Positions 3,159-21,464 of a DNA stretch of 64,000 nucleotides are shown here, one piece after another. How positions within the stretch are numbered: position 1 is the first letter of the stretch; every line of letters begins with the position of its first letter. Both the position numbers and the translations under genes were made by a program. Origin of the DNA: a virus; IMG/VR virus record IMGVR_UViG_3300044632_001003, positions 62,001 through 126,000 of that record. One strand, 5' to 3'. The notes under the pieces are model-generated. The model saw only the letters and a program-made list of their open reading frames with translations. It searched no databases and had not been told where the DNA came from.

Positions 3159-3202
3159 GGGGGGCATTGCAACCCCCCTTGTGACACTTACTCAACTGTC
3201 AC
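3159..3202. repeat. G6/C6 hairpin plus GTGACA...TGTCAC hairpin
   Basis: Same pair of inverted repeats as at 2557-2599: GGGGGG-N8-CCCCCC at 3159-3178 and GTGACACTT...AACTGTCAC at 3181-3202, overlapping the stop codon at 3188. Confidence 0.5.
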
Positions 3203-3346: not shown

Positions 3347-3405
3347 GGTTGAATCTCAGGAACGAATGTATAATAACCCACGTGGTGGGGTTATGGTAAA
3401 ACTGT

Positions 3406-3427
3406 GTGCCACTTCACGAACTGGCAC
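3406..3427. repeat. GTGCCA...TGGCAC hairpin
   Basis: Perfect-arm copy of the dispersed repeat (GTGCCACTTC / GAACTGGCAC) at the boundary between the last small gene and the non-coding palindrome-rich region. Confidence 0.55.
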
Positions 3428-4829: not shown

Positions 4830-4838
4830 GGAATCAGT

Positions 4839-4860
4839 GTGCCACTACCTCAACTGTCAC
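4839..4860. repeat. GTGCCA...TGTCAC hairpin
   Basis: Copy of the dispersed inverted repeat at the 3' end of the gene that stops at 4850. Confidence 0.55.
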
Positions 4861-4996: not shown

Positions 4997-5057
4997 TGGA
5001 TTAATTGCGACGACGAAGGTAGAATATCCCACCTGGTGGCAGATATCAAGGGGTCTT

Positions 5058-5079
5058 GTGCCAGTTCTCAAACTGTCAC
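5058..5079. repeat. GTGCCAGTT...AACTGTCAC hairpin
   Basis: Copy of the dispersed repeat, placed directly after the stop codon of the gene ending at 5081. Confidence 0.55.
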
Positions 5080-12529: not shown

Positions 12530-14152
12530 TCAAGTGGACCCTCTGTGAATGTTTTGTCTCAAATAGTCATACATTGACTGGCATTGTGATGCATAGGACT
12601 GATAGTGTTTTTGACAACCAGTAAAAACATCTGATAGGTAATCCAAATATGCATCACAATCTAATCCTTTTAACTTACCCATTGCCAAATGTAGATGTGC
12701 ATCCACAGGAGAATAATCCATACCTGCAGCAATACATTGAAATCCTGCCCCTGGTTGATATTCCCCAAACTTGTATCGGGCATTTGCAGTGAACATAAAC
12801 TCACTGGTTGCAACAATATCCCCAACCTTACTTTGCATGGATAAAGTATCTGCTATTGTTGAATTAACATCTGCAGAGATTCTACATCTCTCAGTAATAT
12901 CCATCCAATAGTCAGAGTCATGTCTTGGACTGATTGCATAATGCAATGCTACAAATTGTGCTAATTGATAGTAGGTCTGACTCATTGAAAAATTATAAGC
13001 ATCTCTATCCCACTGATTAACAATCCTATTTCTGCGGAGAGTATGGGCAAGAGGAAGAAGGAATTCATATGTTGTTAGCAATCCTGTGCTTTCCAGTGGT
13101 TCAATAAATCCAGCAGCAAGACCAATACCAATCACATTCTTTTTCCAAATCTGATTATGCAAACCCAACTTCATATCAATTGGTCTATATTCCAATTCTT
13201 CAGGATCAACACGATGAGTGTGCTTAATGTGATTCTTGAATTCTTTCAGAGCATCTTCTGAAGAAATGTACTTATCACTATAGACATATCCACCACCAAT
13301 GCGAGACCACAAAGGAATATTCCATACCCAACCATTTGTCAGAGCAGTGCAGTTTGTAAATGGCTCTAATTGTTTCTTTTTATCTTTATATGGAATATGT
13401 GTCGCCCATGCTTTATTGTTTGGAATGATGTGAGAAATCGAATTGAACTTCTCTTCAAGAGCGCCACCCAAGAGCATACTCTTAAATCCTGTACAATCAA
13501 TGAACAAGTCTGCGGTAATTGTTGATCCATCTTTGAGTTTAAGATAATCAACTCCGTTCTCATTTGTAACTACACCATCTACAGTTGAATGAATCAACTT
13601 GACTCCTCTAGGGAGACAAACTGCAGTCTTCAAGTATTGTCCAAATGCTGTTGCATCAAAATGATAAGCAGCATCAAAGTTAAAATTAAATCCTGGAGTC
13701 TTTCCAGTACCATCTGTTGATATTTTTCTTTGTTCAGCAACAGCAGTGATTGGATAAAAACAACGGGCATATGAGTTCTTATCCAGAACATCAGGTCTTA
13801 GTTGTTTAACTAAGTACCAATCATTTCTACTCAGTTGTTCATGAGGAACCGTAGACATCCCAAATGGATAGTGAAAGGAACCAGTCCCCTTTCCTTCAAA
13901 ATCAGTAAATTTAATGCTTAATTTGTATATTCCATCAGTTTTATGCAAGAAATCTCTATCATTCAATCCAAGCAAAGAAGTCCAGTGCTTAATACCACCC
14001 AAGGTGCTTTCACCCACACCAAGAATAGCAAAGTCTGGACTTTCGATGACAGTTAGATCAATTTCAGGAATTTGAGTTGCAATGGTGGCAGCAGACATCC
14101 ATCCTGCCGAACCACCACCGACAACCACAATCTTTTTTATTTCTTTACTCAT
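12530..14152 (-). CDS. Tryptophan-halogenase-like flavoenzyme
   Basis: 540 residues, a full-length match to flavin-dependent halogenases. The FAD-binding GGGSAG lies at residues 12-17; Lys81 in LSIKFTDF matches the position of the catalytic lysine; the diagnostic WxWxIP motif is present as GWVWNIP near residue 270; GIGLAAGFIEPLESTG lies near 335. These enzymes use FADH2, oxygen and a halide to make hypohalous acid, then halogenate tryptophan or other indoles. Cyanomyoviruses are known to carry homologues, with unknown substrate. It stands alone with no visible biosynthetic partner and would need a host flavin reductase. Confidence 0.88.
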   Translation of the reverse strand: MSKEIKKIVVVGGGSAGWMSAATIATQIPEIDLTVIESPDFAILGVGESTLGGIKHWTSLLGLNDRDFLHKTDGIYKLSIKFTDFEGKGTGSFHYPFGMSTVPHEQLSRNDWYLVKQLRPDVLDKNSYARCFYPITAVAEQRKISTDGTGKTPGFNFNFDAAYHFDATAFGQYLKTAVCLPRGVKLIHSTVDGVVTNENGVDYLKLKDGSTITADLFIDCTGFKSMLLGGALEEKFNSISHIIPNNKAWATHIPYKDKKKQLEPFTNCTALTNGWVWNIPLWSRIGGGYVYSDKYISSEDALKEFKNHIKHTHRVDPEELEYRPIDMKLGLHNQIWKKNVIGIGLAAGFIEPLESTGLLTTYEFLLPLAHTLRRNRIVNQWDRDAYNFSMSQTYYQLAQFVALHYAISPRHDSDYWMDITERCRISADVNSTIADTLSMQSKVGDIVATSEFMFTANARYKFGEYQPGAGFQCIAAGMDYSPVDAHLHLAMGKLKGLDCDAYLDYLSDVFTGCQKHYQSYASQCQSMYDYLRQNIHRGST

Positions 14153-15494: not shown

Positions 15495-15966
15495 GGGCAC
15501 TCATCAGGCGATTCGGGAAGAACTGTGCCACTTGATGATCTGTCCATCCGTTCTTCTCAAACAGGTACTCCAGATATAGGGTTTCTTCTTGCTCCCGTGC
15601 CTCTATTTCGTGTGGTTGATGCCAATAGTCGTACTTTTCGACAGGTTCTTTAGAATAACACAATTTTCCGTATCGGAACCGCAGCGAACCGACTACCCAC
15701 TGTCGCAGATGGACCAGCTCATGCAAAAGAGTTTTTATATACAACTCCTCGGACATGTGGGTGTTAAGTTCAATCAGAAACTCACGTGGGCGACGTGATT
15801 CACCCACATAGTCACAATATCCATAAACCTGCTCACGACGCAGACCACGGTGAAGAATCTCCACCTCAATCTTATGACGGGGAAGAAACTTATTCAGAAA
15901 CCAAGTGGTAACGTCCTCACAGAGGAGTTTAGAATAACCGTATCCAGAATACGTGATGTAAGACAT
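15490..15966 (-). CDS. Zinc metalloprotease (SprT-like, HExxH)
   Basis: 158 residues from ATG at 15966. LLHELVHLRQW holds the HExxH zinc motif (His82, Glu83, His86), and HEIEAREQEE (about 122-131) supplies a probable third ligand. The arrangement resembles SprT/DUF45-type minigluzincins. Possible roles are processing of a phage or host protein. Cotranscribed with small envelope-type genes upstream. The catalytic motif is seen directly; the substrate is unknown. Confidence 0.7.
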   Translation of the reverse strand: MSYITYSGYGYSKLLCEDVTTWFLNKFLPRHKIEVEILHRGLRREQVYGYCDYVGESRRPREFLIELNTHMSEELYIKTLLHELVHLRQWVVGSLRFRYGKLCYSKEPVEKYDYWHQPHEIEAREQEETLYLEYLFEKNGWTDHQVAQFFPNRLMSAL

Positions 15967-17058: not shown

Positions 17059-17460
17059 TCAAACCGCCAGTGCTGCAGAAGGAATCTCTACAACTTCAGG
17101 CAGTTTGCTGTCATCAAACTGGTGCATATTGTAGCAGACCCATTCGCCACCACGGAAGACATAAGCATACTCTTCACTGTTATCAGGAAGAAGATACTCG
17201 CACAGGTCAGCATCAAGGCGAGGAGGGCAATTCTCACCACGCTGAGAGTAGTATTCGGGGTGATATGCGTTCTCATAGTCATTCTTAGTCCAGCAGGAAG
17301 ACATATCACCACCGTCAATCAGTTCGGCAGCGAGTTCTTTGCTATTGTAATGCGTCTTCAGGATGCGACCCAACCATTCGGGATACGAGTCCCAATGATG
17401 ATAGCTGCTCAGAATGCTGCCATCAGAAAGTTCGATTCCGATTCTTCCGCGAGTTGCCAT
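17059..17460 (-). CDS. Conserved phage protein, 133 residues
   Basis: ATG at 17460. The start MATRGRIGIELSDGSILSSYHHWDSYPEWLG and the GGDMSSCW segment belong to a family I recognise as widespread in T4-like and other phages, with no assigned function. It follows a TATACT module at 17486-17491 with the GGTAATCAACAAACG leader. Confidence 0.7.
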   Translation of the reverse strand: MATRGRIGIELSDGSILSSYHHWDSYPEWLGRILKTHYNSKELAAELIDGGDMSSCWTKNDYENAYHPEYYSQRGENCPPRLDADLCEYLLPDNSEEYAYVFRGGEWVCYNMHQFDDSKLPEVVEIPSAALAV

Positions 17461-17483: not shown

Positions 17484-18281
17484 TTAGTATAATGCCTCTA
17501 GCAGCGGATTCTGGGGTTCCTGTGCCACTTCCTCAACTGGCATAGCATCCTCTATGCGTTGCTTAGCAATCTCATAATATTCTTGTTCAAATTCCATCCC
17601 AATAAACTTTCGATTTAATTTAACTGCAGCAACACCAGTAGAACCAGAACCCATACAGTTATCAAGAACAATCTCACCTTCATTAGAATACGTTTTGATT
17701 AACCATTCCATTAGTGGAACAGGTTTCTGTGTGGGATGCACCTGTTGTTGAGCACTAAAGTCTCTGGAGATATTAAGAACAGACTTGGGATATCTTACAC
17801 CTTCATTACTGAAGGATTTACGTGGTTTCATACCATAACCATGGTCATTCTTGCGACCAACGTATCCCTCTGGATTCTTACTTGTTCTTGAGTACGGTTC
17901 TCCTTTTTCCATCTGTGGGTTGTACGTACCACCTGTTTCCCTGTAAAAAATTAGAACGTTCTCGTGAGTCTTCATTGGTCTGTACTTGGCAAGTCCAGGC
18001 GATCCACATTTGTTCTTGTTCCATACTAATTCGTACCTGAACCATTCTAGTTTTGAGCAGATAAGTTGTGCTGAAAAGGGTTGAGAACCAAATAGACATA
18101 TCACACCTTTAGGTTTGATGATACGCCCATATTGCTGCCACATTTGGTTAAAATCTAAAACTTCATCCCACTTGATGGAAGTAGTCCCATAAGGTGGGTC
18201 GCAGCAGATGAAATCAATAGAATTGTCTGGAATCTCTTTCATGAGTTCCAGACAGTCACCTAGTTGTAAGTCAAAGGGCAT
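17484..18281 (-). CDS. Beta-type DNA methyltransferase (N6-adenine or N4-cytosine)
   Basis: About 265 residues. The catalytic DPPYG (residues 32-36 counted from an upstream ATG at 18293) precedes the AdoMet-binding FxGxG-type motif NCMGSGSTG near residue 220, the order of beta-class methyltransferases. The target-recognition part in between includes HPTQKPVPLMEWL, typical of this class. The start overlaps the restriction-endonuclease-like gene by 11-23 bases. The stop codon lies in the promoter of the next gene, and the last codons (PVEEVAQEPQN) carry a copy of the dispersed GTGCCACTT repeat. Likely role: modification of phage DNA, perhaps paired with the neighbouring nuclease. Confidence 0.85.
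   Translation of the reverse strand: MPFDLQLGDCLELMKEIPDNSIDFICCDPPYGTTSIKWDEVLDFNQMWQQYGRIIKPKGVICLFGSQPFSAQLICSKLEWFRYELVWNKNKCGSPGLAKYRPMKTHENVLIFYRETGGTYNPQMEKGEPYSRTSKNPEGYVGRKNDHGYGMKPRKSFSNEGVRYPKSVLNISRDFSAQQQVHPTQKPVPLMEWLIKTYSNEGEIVLDNCMGSGSTGVAAVKLNRKFIGMEFEQEYYEIAKQRIEDAMPVEEVAQEPQNPLLEALY
17486..17491 (-). promoter_or_regulatory. TATACT promoter module
   Basis: Minus-strand TATACTAACAAGGTAATC; overlaps the last codon and stop of the methyltransferase gene and precedes the ATG at 17460. Confidence 0.45.
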
Positions 18282-18873
18282 CATAACCTTCATGGGCAGT
18301 AATTTTTTTGAGAACAGATTCTTTGTAACATCCTACCAGAAAATCATACGCTTCAGCATGAGTACGCTGAACAGGAGTAGTATTAACCCGCCATTCAATC
18401 TGGAAAGGAAGATTGTTACCGTTAGAAGTGAGTTTGTTGAGAGTTTTAAGAGAAGTAAGATGAACCTCGTTAGTAACTTTATTCAATGAGATGATATAAT
18501 AATCACGATTATTATCTTTGCTGCTATGATTCTTTAAAAGTTCTTGAAACTTCTTCCAACGCTGAACATTAACTTTATCTTCGGGCAAGTCAGTCAGAGC
18601 ATACAGAATCGCTGCTTTCGAAGTAAAATTATCTGCAGCACTACCATACTTGGAAGATTTGATGTTGAGAGGATAACCAAACACCTTGACATCCCACCAG
18701 TTACGCTCTACAGGTTTCTCTACATTCTCACTACCATACTTATCAACCAACAGGTCAATGATAGTATCTTCATCATCAATGCTATTCACACGACCATCGC
18801 CATGCTTTTCACTGACAGAGATGACAATGCTGTTGAGAAACTCAACAACTTCAACAAGAATAGACGGAAACAT
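18271..18873 (-). CDS. Putative type II restriction endonuclease-like protein
   Basis: 200 residues from ATG at 18873, 23 bases after the upstream stop; a longer TTG start is unlikely. Residues 52-94 read EKPVERNWWDVKVFG...LNIKSSKYGSAADNF: an Asp61 and NIK72 that fit the D...(E/D)xK catalytic pattern, with the NIK-S-(x)-ADN arrangement seen in several type II restriction enzymes. It overlaps the methyltransferase gene, the usual geometry of a restriction-modification pair. The family match is by pattern only. Alternatives are a homing-type nuclease or a decayed restriction gene. Confidence 0.55.
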   Translation of the reverse strand: MFPSILVEVVEFLNSIVISVSEKHGDGRVNSIDDEDTIIDLLVDKYGSENVEKPVERNWWDVKVFGYPLNIKSSKYGSAADNFTSKAAILYALTDLPEDKVNVQRWKKFQELLKNHSSKDNNRDYYIISLNKVTNEVHLTSLKTLNKLTSNGNNLPFQIEWRVNTTPVQRTHAEAYDFLVGCYKESVLKKITAHEGYDAL

Positions 18874-18895
18874 CAAATTGATTAAACTATTAGTA

Positions 18896-19387
18896 TTATA
18901 CGTCTTTTTCTGTCTCTTGGATATCTTCTTGTACCACTTCCTCAACTGGCACATCAACCTTGGAACTTCTCAAGGTTTTTGGCTTAGTGTATTCGACTGG
19001 AACAAAAGGTTGTTCAGGATCTTTTGTTGCTCTAATAGATGGACTAGAAGTAAATTTCTTGGTCTTTTTTGGTTGTTTTAAAAGTTTGTGGCGGAACAAT
19101 GTTTGACCAGGATTAAGCTCCTTAGGTGGTTCTGGATCTGGTTCAAATTGTTTTAAATATGTCTTTTTACTGAAGAGAAGATTCTTTTCAATTGCTTCTT
19201 CAGGAGTTGCAGGTAAATCTTCTTCTACAATTGATGATTGTTTCTGAATTTCTTCATAAACATCAACATGTGGAACATCTTCTGTCTTTTCTTCAACAGG
19301 AGCACATACAACTTCTGGTTCTGGTTGAACTACACTCTCTGGTTGTTTTTGAGATTCAGAAGAAACAAGATCAGAAAATCTTCCCAT
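18896..19387 (-). CDS. Acidic, proline/glutamate-rich low-complexity protein
   Basis: 163 residues, rich in Glu, Pro, Val and Lys (QPEPEVVCAPVEEKTEDV, then KQPKKTKKFTSSPS). Probably disordered. It sits between the Dam gene and the nuclease gene and has a late-type ATAAATA box at 19404-19410. Its 3' end contains another copy of the dispersed repeat (18931-18952), encoding PVEEVVQE. Unknown function. Confidence 0.65.
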   Translation of the reverse strand: MGRFSDLVSSESQKQPESVVQPEPEVVCAPVEEKTEDVPHVDVYEEIQKQSSIVEEDLPATPEEAIEKNLLFSKKTYLKQFEPDPEPPKELNPGQTLFRHKLLKQPKKTKKFTSSPSIRATKDPEQPFVPVEYTKPKTLRSSKVDVPVEEVVQEDIQETEKDV

Positions 19388-19402
19388 CGTCCTACTTTTT
19401 GA

Positions 19403-20230
19403 CTATTTATTATTCCAAACAGCAATTAGTTCATTTGCTTTCTTCCTACTAGAACCCTTGGCAGAAATGGTCCTAGTCACCTGAATTGGATAGATTTTAG
19501 CATTATTATAAAGTTCTCTTGCAACAGGAACATCGTGATTAGAAATAATGACGGTAATTCCTTTGTTTGCAAGTTGTTCTGCCAAATCTCTCAACTCAAC
19601 TTGCTGTGCATCAGTAAATCCATCCGTGGCATAATCTGTAAAGGATGCAGTTTCCGAAGCTGGAATGTATGGTGGGTCAAAATATACAGTATCACCTGCT
19701 TCTAAGTCCTCATAAAGTGACGGATCTTCAAAAGATAATGAAGTGAATCGTGTAAGTTTTTTAGTGAGGAAGAACATTCTAAAGTTCATCATCTCTTCCG
19801 ATGGGCAAGATGGTTTATCATACTTACCAAAGGGAACATTAAATTCACCTTTCTTATTATATCTCGACAGTCCATTGAAGCAGTGACGGTTCAGGTAAAT
19901 GAACAGTCGTGCCCTCTCTATAGTGTTTGTTGCCTGGTTAAAGTGCTTCCGCAACTCTAGATATGCTTCCTTAGTATTATTTTCTGGAATGAATAACTCT
20001 TCGCAATATTTGATGAAGTTATCATCCCCAGGATGAACCAAATTCTGGTAGATTGCCACCAAATCTTTATTCACATCATTCAAAATGTATTGCTCTGCTG
20101 GTGTGTTAAGGGCAACAGCAAGACTACCACCAAAGGGTTCGCAATAACGCTTTGGATATCCAATATGGGGAATAAGATGGGGCAGGACCCGTGTTTTGTT
20201 TCCTGCCCACTTCAAGAAAGTTTTGTTCAT
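19403..20230 (-). CDS. dam: Dam-family DNA adenine methylase
   Basis: 275 residues. Motif I FLKWAGNKTR (5-14), the FGGSLAVALN AdoMet block (34-43) and DPPY near residue 184 followed by IPASETASFTDY identify the Dam/M.DpnII class, which methylates adenine in GATC. T4 encodes a Dam of similar size. It overlaps the DGQHK protein gene by 4 bases. It may protect phage DNA from the MutH/Sau3AI-like nuclease encoded at 969 as well as from host GATC-specific enzymes. Full length and intact by eye. Confidence 0.9.
   Translation of the reverse strand: MNKTFLKWAGNKTRVLPHLIPHIGYPKRYCEPFGGSLAVALNTPAEQYILNDVNKDLVAIYQNLVHPGDDNFIKYCEELFIPENNTKEAYLELRKHFNQATNTIERARLFIYLNRHCFNGLSRYNKKGEFNVPFGKYDKPSCPSEEMMNFRMFFLTKKLTRFTSLSFEDPSLYEDLEAGDTVYFDPPYIPASETASFTDYATDGFTDAQQVELRDLAEQLANKGITVIISNHDVPVARELYNNAKIYPIQVTRTISAKGSSRKKANELIAVWNNK
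19404..19410 (-). promoter_or_regulatory. Late promoter box ATAAATA
   Basis: Located 17 bases before the ATG at 19387, overlapping the end of the Dam gene. Confidence 0.4.
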
Positions 20231-21150
20231 TTAATAGGGTCTTTCAATCCGTATTTTTCAAGAATGTCTTCAGAGATACACTGACTGTTTGCAGTTGTAG
20301 AAAGAGCATTATAACTCTTAATGATTCTTCTGGCAATCAAAACATCAGTATTTGGTCCAGAGATTCCTTCATACCAAACTTTTGGTTTGGACTTAGACAT
20401 TTCAAAGCAAACAAAATTCAGAACTTTTTCTCTCCTTCCGTTGATGACTTCACTTGCATTATCAAGAAATCTAATCAAGCAAGATAGTCCATACACGATA
20501 TCACCACGAACTTCACGTTTGCCTGAAACTTTATCAAAGTAGTCTTTTGCATAAGAAACTGCTCTCATAACGGTTACAAGTTCGTAATTCTTTACTGCTT
20601 GTCTCCACTGATATTCACCATTTAATTGATGTCCTTCAACATCACCAAGACTATCAACATAAACGCCACAGGCACTGAGATTGTCATTATATACAATTGC
20701 CTCTGGCAGACCAAACACATACCCTGCTCTCATTTTGTCAATGTGAGTGGGATTTTTACGTTTTGCATTTTGAGCGTGAAAGATTTCTGCTTCAATCTTT
20801 TCGCAGTCTTCATCACTTCTATTTTTGGTGTGTTCAAGCACCATACAAGGAACTTTATCAATACAACCACTCCACAGTGCCATAACTGCTTTGTGCTGCC
20901 CGTCAATCACGACGATTCTACCATCAGGACGAACGGCAACAATTAGTGGAACAAAATACCACTTGTTGAATTGACCATATGTATTAATATCACCACAAGA
21001 AAGGTCTCTTTGATAGCTTTCGGGAACTATTAACTTATAGACTTCTAGCTCTTTATACACTAGAAACTCGTTAATACTACCAGGACGAAACTTTTTTGCT
21101 TTCGATTTGAATTTATGTGCAAGCTGCACTAAAGGAACATAGTTCTTCAT
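20227..21150 (-). CDS. DGQHK (ParB/Srx-fold) protein
   Basis: 307 residues. The core YQRDLS (46-51) and VVIDGQHKAVMALWSG (81-96) fit the ParB/sulfiredoxin-like superfamily, which includes DGQHR proteins such as DndB and DpdB from DNA-modification systems. The C-terminal part is helical. It is the first gene of an operon with dam, promoted from 21212-21240. Possible roles are DNA binding or nicking, NTP hydrolysis (as in ParB), or regulation of modification. The motif is visible, the activity is inferred. Confidence 0.7.
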   Translation of the reverse strand: MKNYVPLVQLAHKFKSKAKKFRPGSINEFLVYKELEVYKLIVPESYQRDLSCGDINTYGQFNKWYFVPLIVAVRPDGRIVVIDGQHKAVMALWSGCIDKVPCMVLEHTKNRSDEDCEKIEAEIFHAQNAKRKNPTHIDKMRAGYVFGLPEAIVYNDNLSACGVYVDSLGDVEGHQLNGEYQWRQAVKNYELVTVMRAVSYAKDYFDKVSGKREVRGDIVYGLSCLIRFLDNASEVINGRREKVLNFVCFEMSKSKPKVWYEGISGPNTDVLIARRIIKSYNALSTTANSQCISEDILEKYGLKDPIK

Positions 21151-21211: not shown

Positions 21212-21240
21212 AGTATAACATAAAAAAAGAGGGTTGTCAA
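21212..21240 (-). promoter_or_regulatory. Sigma70-type promoter (TTGACA-N17-TATACT)
   Basis: TTGACA at 21235-21240 and TATACT at 21212-21217 with an exact 17-base spacer. It drives the DGQHK-dam operon. The -35 box lies inside the terminator stem of the upstream gene. Confidence 0.75.
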
Positions 21241-21246
21241 CCCTCT
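21221..21246 (-). terminator. Intrinsic terminator overlapping a promoter
   Basis: On the minus strand AGAGGGTT-GAC-AACCCTCT followed by seven T: perfect 8-base stem and U-tract, directly after the gene ending at 21252. The clearest rho-independent terminator in the window. Confidence 0.85.
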
Positions 21247-21251
21247 AATAT

Positions 21252-21464
21252 TCAATCATCATAAACTCTACATTCCAATGCATCAGGATGTAGTTCGCAA
21301 TAGAGTTCCAATGCTGTAGGATCGTGTGAGTCTTCTGGATGATGTTCTTTATAAACTTTAAGTGCTTCTAATTCTTCTTCTGTGTGTCTTCTGGACTGCG
21401 GAGAAATTGTTGGGTCATTCAAAAGATCCACATCCTTTTGAATGTGTTGGTCGATGTTATCCAT
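21252..21464 (-). CDS. 70-residue acidic protein
   Basis: ATG at 21464 is preferred because an ATAAATA box lies 21 bases upstream; an upstream GTG at 21503 would add 13 residues and overlap the preceding gene. The sequence DNIDQHIQKDVDLLNDP...RRHTEEELEALKVY is helical and acidic. Followed by a strong terminator. Unknown function. Confidence 0.6.
   Translation of the reverse strand: MDNIDQHIQKDVDLLNDPTISPQSRRHTEEELEALKVYKEHHPEDSHDPTALELYCELHPDALECRVYDD

Follow-up and report, generated by a model that had tools for sequence, protein, structure and literature searches.

The DNA stretch analysed here (the window) consists of 64,000 nucleotides corresponding to positions 62001-126000 of the 205-kb IMG/VR virus record IMGVR_UViG_3300044632_001003, whose source, judged from its relatives, is a T4-like cyanophage. 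It includes two overlapping minus-strand genes, named here R (18271-18873) and M (17484-18293), which very likely encode a Type II restriction endonuclease with the target GTNNAC and its cognate adenine methyltransferase, a pair that would cut non-self DNA while the phage's own DNA is spared by methylation or by removal of the sites.

A profile search of R, a step proposed in the initial annotation of this 200-residue protein, matched a nuclease family (PHROG 3978, 'endonuclease', E 2e-96), and the restriction-enzyme-like core described there is present as D61...N70-I71-K72 and A80-D81-N82. An alignment of 76 homologues with identities down to 31% shows no variation at K72, D81 and N82 and little or none at D124 and in the NGNNLPFQ region, with conservation of E35 and D61 at 90% or more. 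An AlphaFold2 model built from these 76 sequences reached a predicted local distance difference test score (pLDDT) of 94.3 and a predicted template modelling score (pTM) of 0.89; an earlier model from 11 close sequences (pLDDT 47.5) was set aside. The ten best PDB matches of the model found by Foldseek were all Type II restriction enzymes (SwaI, ThaI, HincII, EcoRV). These enzymes are blunt cutters, and the modelled fold class, PD-(D/E)XK of the SwaI/ThaI/HincII/EcoRV group, indicates that R probably cuts bluntly as GTN^NAC. The active site is of the PD-(D/E)XK type, with N70 in the place of the acidic residue of (D/E)XK (S in ThaI), and the arrangement D...NxK distinguishes R from HincII, SwaI, ThaI and EcoRV, with D...(D/E)xK. 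The template modelling score of HincII to the R model is about 0.6, and its target, GTYRAC, is a subset of GTNNAC. ThaI is the sole fold match detectable as a neighbour by sequence, and weakly so (PDB profile E 0.005). Assignment of R to the ThaI family with CGCG as target was considered and dropped: R scores 18.7 bits against PF15514, under the gathering score of 25, the depleted site is GTNNAC and not CGCG, and CGCG is unfit because adenine methylase partners require an A in the target. R is under purifying selection, with a median ratio of nonsynonymous to synonymous substitution rates (dN/dS) of 0.24 that is lower in most close pairs. Profile, fold, active site, linkage to M and the target proposed below all support the earlier reading of this protein as a restriction enzyme. 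T4-like cyanophages are known to carry homing endonucleases (PMC3037559), and R could be regarded as one of these or as another non-restriction nuclease; this is nevertheless highly improbable given its Type II restriction fold, its linkage to methylases in phages and bacteria, and the genome-wide depletion of a short palindromic target.

M matches Pfam N6_N4_Mtase (2e-34) and shows DPPY followed by NCMGSGSTG, which is the beta order of motifs and agrees with the beta-type methyltransferase named by the initial annotation; its PDB relatives are CcrM, MboIIA and RsrI. R and M are found together in 40 of 40 isolate cyanophage records holding either (at least 60% identity), M being directly downstream of R, and M likewise comes next after R in almost every divergent IMG/VR viral locus. 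As expected of a Type II restriction-modification (R-M) system, a cognate methyltransferase therefore stands beside R, except in a minority of relatives. The view that such a pair is unusual in a T4-like phage can be maintained only in part, the same pair being annotated in those 40 records as 'restriction endonuclease' and 'DNA adenine methylase'. R homologues in bacteria and in a few other phages adjoin a TaqI/Eco57I-like methylase of the gamma class with an NPPY motif, which in bacteria has a length of about 375-430 amino acids. Cyanophage R alleles that share 47% identity stand beside M proteins that are 94-96% identical. R has been swapped against a nearly constant M, which points to one target shared by these alleles. 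The cyanophage proteins form one clade of the R tree (100/99), including one phage row with a gamma-class partner on a long branch. In a 175-kb phage (G009, locus L163), an R homologue is paired, like those of bacteria, with an NPPY methylase of the gamma class; the stretches read show a moderate depletion of GTNNAC, with an observed/expected ratio (O/E) of 0.44. A plasmid search with a bacterial R found nothing.

To identify the target, 592 palindromes with and without gaps were scanned blind, with a correction from phages that lack R; sites were counted in 20-90 kb per phage (GTTAAC was counted genome-wide). GTNNAC ranked first of the 592 in the window, with 18 sites seen and 201 expected (log10 P -40), and it also ranked first in ACG-2014a (-44) and in each of two groups of contigs that include R without M, referred to as orphan R (log10 P -57 in the first group and -11 in the second). 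None of its twelve one-base neighbours was depleted in the scan, and the depletion affects all sixteen central dinucleotides. Synonymous-codon shuffles gave 103.5 +/- 8.6 expected sites against 9 seen in the window, and 91 expected against 0 seen in the orphan-R contigs, which excludes codon use and protein sequence as causes of the depletion. In a further 80 kb of the window's genome, 26 sites were seen and 216 expected. From this genome-wide depletion, which supplies the short specific recognition sequence characteristic of a Type II enzyme, we infer that R recognises GTNNAC. The 18 residual sites of the window are clustered (300-529, 12534-13851 and others), and three of them lie in a halogenase-like gene (12530-14152), as would be expected had the gene arrived recently.

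The first orphan-R group consists of four contigs (L118, L121, L125 and L130) in which a helicase gene, the same that follows M in Syn33, is found 69 nt after R; the second includes L153 and L154. Contig L121 ends 97 nt after R and would be weak alone, and it was kept because its alignment with L130 runs to its end, while L143 was left out since M begins at the contig end. The R tree places the orphans in two separate lineages. No M was found in any of the orphan-R contigs, all of them fragments of 8-15 kb, and GTNNAC is completely missing: 180 sites would be expected in the 46.5 kb of the first group, whose contigs share part of their content, and 35 in the second, and none was seen in either. 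The orphan R has a dN/dS of 0.04-0.07, that is, strong purifying selection, which argues that R itself is useful, rather than M or an addiction effect. We lean slightly towards the view that some lytic phages possess an active restriction enzyme for GTNNAC without any methylase, and owe their immunity to the selective removal of every site. Addiction to R-M systems is known in bacteria, and the tight linkage and overlap of R and M would suit a selfish addiction module that gives the phage no advantage and is kept since a carrier that loses M dies. We give this explanation little credence, as at least two lineages apparently lost M yet retain R under purifying selection; addiction cannot hold R in the orphans, where it could simply be lost.

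Depletion was also compared between carriers and phages without R. Nine R-less cyanophages showed a GTNNAC O/E of 0.52-0.92, and R carriers in the compared set ranged from 0.02 to 0.64 (up to 0.81 in the full per-contig list); the one-sided rank test (p 1.6e-4) is indicative only, as the lineages were hand-chosen. P-HM1 and P-HM2 were co-isolated (PMC3037559), and both are listed with host MED4. By synonymous-codon shuffles, P-HM1, with no R, is not depleted (117 sites in genes, 105 expected), whereas P-HM2, with R-M, is depleted (56 against 107). The R-M carrier Syn33 keeps 127 sites in 60 kb (O/E 0.64), and since R without M goes with 0 sites, something must protect those of Syn33; protection by M would be the simplest account. 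The pooled bacterial R loci showed an O/E of 0.35, several Helicobacter loci having no site at all, and in this pool GGNCC and CATG were about as low as GTNNAC. The R-M carrier G010 (L228-L230 and L176) has many GTTAAC sites (108 in the genome) and many GTATAC sites but few C/G-centred GTNNAC sites; its R may have changed target, or a further methylase may guard the A/T-centred sites. Phages commonly lose sites that host enzymes cut, and the depletion could be ascribed to hosts that restrict GTNNAC, with M kept as a counter-defence and R as a passenger; the mild depletion of the R-less cyanophages would fit. This is improbable, as the depletion tracks R and not M and is complete where M is missing, P-HM1 and P-HM2 differ as the presence of R predicts in spite of their common isolation and host, and strong purifying selection acts on the orphan R.

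Several observations weigh against an R that cuts GTNNAC and drives the removal of sites. The R-less phages are themselves mildly depleted, and the depletion in the R-M carriers Syn33, S-RIM12, G010 and G011 does not exceed theirs. The L161/L256 locus, with an R fragment 87% identical to the L130 orphan R and no M on the 5.8-kb L161 contig, keeps 2 GTNNAC sites (17 expected). Degradation of host DNA is known for P-HM2 and also for Syn9 (PMC7852597), and no R match to Syn9 was found among the isolate records; R is therefore not needed for, and cannot be the general answer to, host DNA degradation. The four contigs of the first orphan group overlap partly in content and, the orphan contigs being short fragments, M could sit elsewhere in those genomes. 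A related possibility is that another methylase encoded elsewhere guards GTNNAC in the orphan-R phages, the absence of sites being a by-product of strong R activity, and phages with both genes, such as that of the window and ACG-2014a, also purge their sites strongly. We regard this as possible but doubtful: M is gone from its usual place, where the helicase gene now follows R as it follows M in Syn33, none of the contigs holds M, and there are 0 sites where about 200 are expected.

If R and M act as proposed, the cleavage, the GTNNAC methylation and the benefit to the phage that we infer would take the following course. R made by the phage would cut DNA bearing GTNNAC, namely the host chromosome and competing R-less phages (the latter have roughly 2-3 sites in each kb), and M would methylate the residual sites of the phage. 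Fresh phage DNA, transiently unmethylated, would still be cut, and selection would strip it of GTNNAC. Once all sites were gone M would be dispensable and could have been deleted, as in at least two lineages, with R kept under purifying selection. The initial proposal that host or competitor DNA is degraded while self-DNA is methylated is plausible in these terms and incomplete, as self-DNA would also be spared by the removal of GTNNAC.

The initial annotation had assigned R and M to a five-gene modification island together with the genes of a linker protein, a Dam methylase and a ParB-fold DGQHK protein (Table 1). All five open reading frames are present on the minus strand, but they do not travel together, and the island as a single unit was rejected, R-M being the only conserved part. 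The linker, Dam and DGQHK genes were confined to loci almost identical to that of the window, the linker gene to just 4 identical contigs, and the trio occurs in none of the divergent R-M loci. In L016 and L017, R-M lies between the same two neighbours as in the window (a gene at 21252 whose product ends in LECRVYDD, and a gene at 17059) without the trio. The R-M pair is thus the unit, and the comparison of these loci points to the trio as a separate insertion in the window or a loss in L016/L017. Relatives of Dam are also found in R-less cyanophages, and those of the DGQHK protein in cyanophages outside the list of R-M carriers. The Dam assignment is solid (261 bits; the NCBIfam dam cut-off is 115). 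For the DGQHK protein the match to PHROG 2558 stands and the ParB-like similarity is weak. No match to the linker protein was found in Pfam or PHROG family searches. The window has fewer GATC sites than expected (143 against 266) and the Dam-carrying S-RIM8 far fewer (L250 and L251; 24 against 172), but no such depletion is seen in S-PM2, syn9, P-HM1 and ACG-2014a.

Table 1. Coordinates in the window of the R-M pair, adjoining genes and sequence elements.
Feature	Position	Strand	Description
M	17484..18293	-	269 aa; beta-class N6-adenine methyltransferase, predicted cognate of R, putative GTNNAC methylation
R	18271..18873	-	200 aa; Type II restriction endonuclease, putative target GTNNAC
R end/M start overlap, 23 nt	18271..18293	-	similar overlap in relatives
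R E35 codon	18769..18771	-	putative active-site helix glutamate; aligns with ThaI E62/E63 region
R D61 codon	18691..18693	-	putative catalytic aspartate; ThaI alignment
R K72 codon	18658..18660	-	putative catalytic lysine; invariant in 76 sequences
Linker protein gene	18896..19387	-	adjoins R-M unit, outside it; no family match
Dam-family methyltransferase gene	19403..20230	-	adjoins R-M unit, outside it; TIGR00571
ParB-like DGQHK protein gene	20227..21150	-	adjoins R-M unit, outside it; PHROG 2558/1033
Terminator-like hairpin	21212..21246	-	upstream of DGQHK gene; loop gives -35 of TTGACA-17-TATACT promoter
26-bp direct repeat, copy 1	18926..18951	-	in end of linker gene; belongs to recurring phage element
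26-bp direct repeat, copy 2	17517..17542	-	in end of M; belongs to recurring phage element
22-nt element TGACAGTTGANNAAGTGNCACA	950-971, 2577-2598, 3180-3201, 3405-3426, 4838-4859, 5057-5078, 15524-15545, 17521-17542, 18930-18951	all -	

A single sigma70 promoter for all five genes was not confirmed. A promoter-like sequence, TTGACA-17-TATACT (11/12 match), overlaps the hairpin upstream of the DGQHK gene (21246-21212), and one of the window's few remaining GTNNAC sites (21236) lies in this hairpin. The R gene of relatives is closely preceded by a hairpin/-10 of its own, and in the window a TATAAT, absent from the list of the promoter scan, is located about 20 nt before R. R-M is flanked by the two copies of a 26-bp direct repeat. 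Their interpretation as the footprint of an insertion was dropped, since the repeat belongs to the 22-nt element TGACAGTTGANNAAGTGNCACA, with nine copies in the window, all on the same strand (0.02 expected), and in L016/L017 M ends in the same way although the upstream copy is missing. The element is often found just 5' of a terminator-like hairpin that also bears promoter hexamers, and similar stretches stand before R in relatives; it resembles promoter/stem-loop shuffling modules known from T4-like phages.

The closest characterised match to the phage pair by specificity, that of the phage being deduced from depletion, is HP0909/HP0910 (M.HpyAIX) of Helicobacter pylori, a GTNNAC system with the isoschizomers Hpy8I and Hpy166II (PMC3936762). 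Both have an adenine methylase partner and carriers that are strongly depleted of sites, the GTNNAC O/E of H. pylori being 0.06-0.11 (PMC3849833). Homologues of R with 31-40% identity are found in other Helicobacter and in Campylobacter; the class of methylase differs, the 269-amino acid phage M being a beta DPPY enzyme and those beside the bacterial R homologues gamma NPPY enzymes. The cyanophage pairs of P-HM2, Syn33, ACG-2014a, S-MbCM100 and S-RIM12 have the same order and overlap as that of the window, with R 63-68% and M 76-81% identical. The papers found on annotated cyanophage pairs assign them no target or function; the sole mention of that of P-HM2 in Sullivan 2010 is as 'a pair of endonucleases' unique to it (PMC3037559). 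Complete R-M pairs in a lytic virus are represented by CviAI and CviAII of Chlorella virus PBCV-1, where R is in the virion and self-DNA carries N6-methyladenine (m6A) (PMC7248222). Unlike the cyanophages, PBCV-1 has a eukaryotic host, its targets are GATC and CATG, and its sites are kept and methylated. EndoII and EndoIV of T4 (denA, denB) possibly share a role with R, namely degradation of host DNA while self is exempt. T4 exempts its own DNA by means of hydroxymethylcytosine, whereas the cyanophages would do so by m6A and site removal. None of denA, ndd and denB is present in cyanomyoviruses, whose route of host DNA degradation has not been described (PMC2984593).

The R-M pair was already known by annotation, and what is new is its proposed target. 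No report of the target, of R without M, or of the removal of sites was found in the open-access literature, which was the scope of the search (subscription papers and REBASE were outside it). The findings point to lytic phages that carry a Type II R-M system specific for GTNNAC and protect themselves, in part or entirely, by removal of sites. The literature has yet to explain how marine T4-like cyanophages break down host DNA in the absence of the T4 nucleases (PMC2984593), and an R with a proposed target makes its carriers testable in this respect and indicates which rival phages should be susceptible. The change of methylase class between phages and bacteria, together with the swapping of R alleles against a near-constant M (47% versus 96% identity), illustrates the evolution of restriction enzymes. 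The approach of deducing a recognition site from its genome-wide depletion in orphan carriers can be applied generally, and the depletion of GATC makes a GATC-cutting counterpart of the same logic conceivable. If true, the passage from methylated self to site-free self, followed by loss of the methylase, would constitute a second form of self-immunity to restriction.

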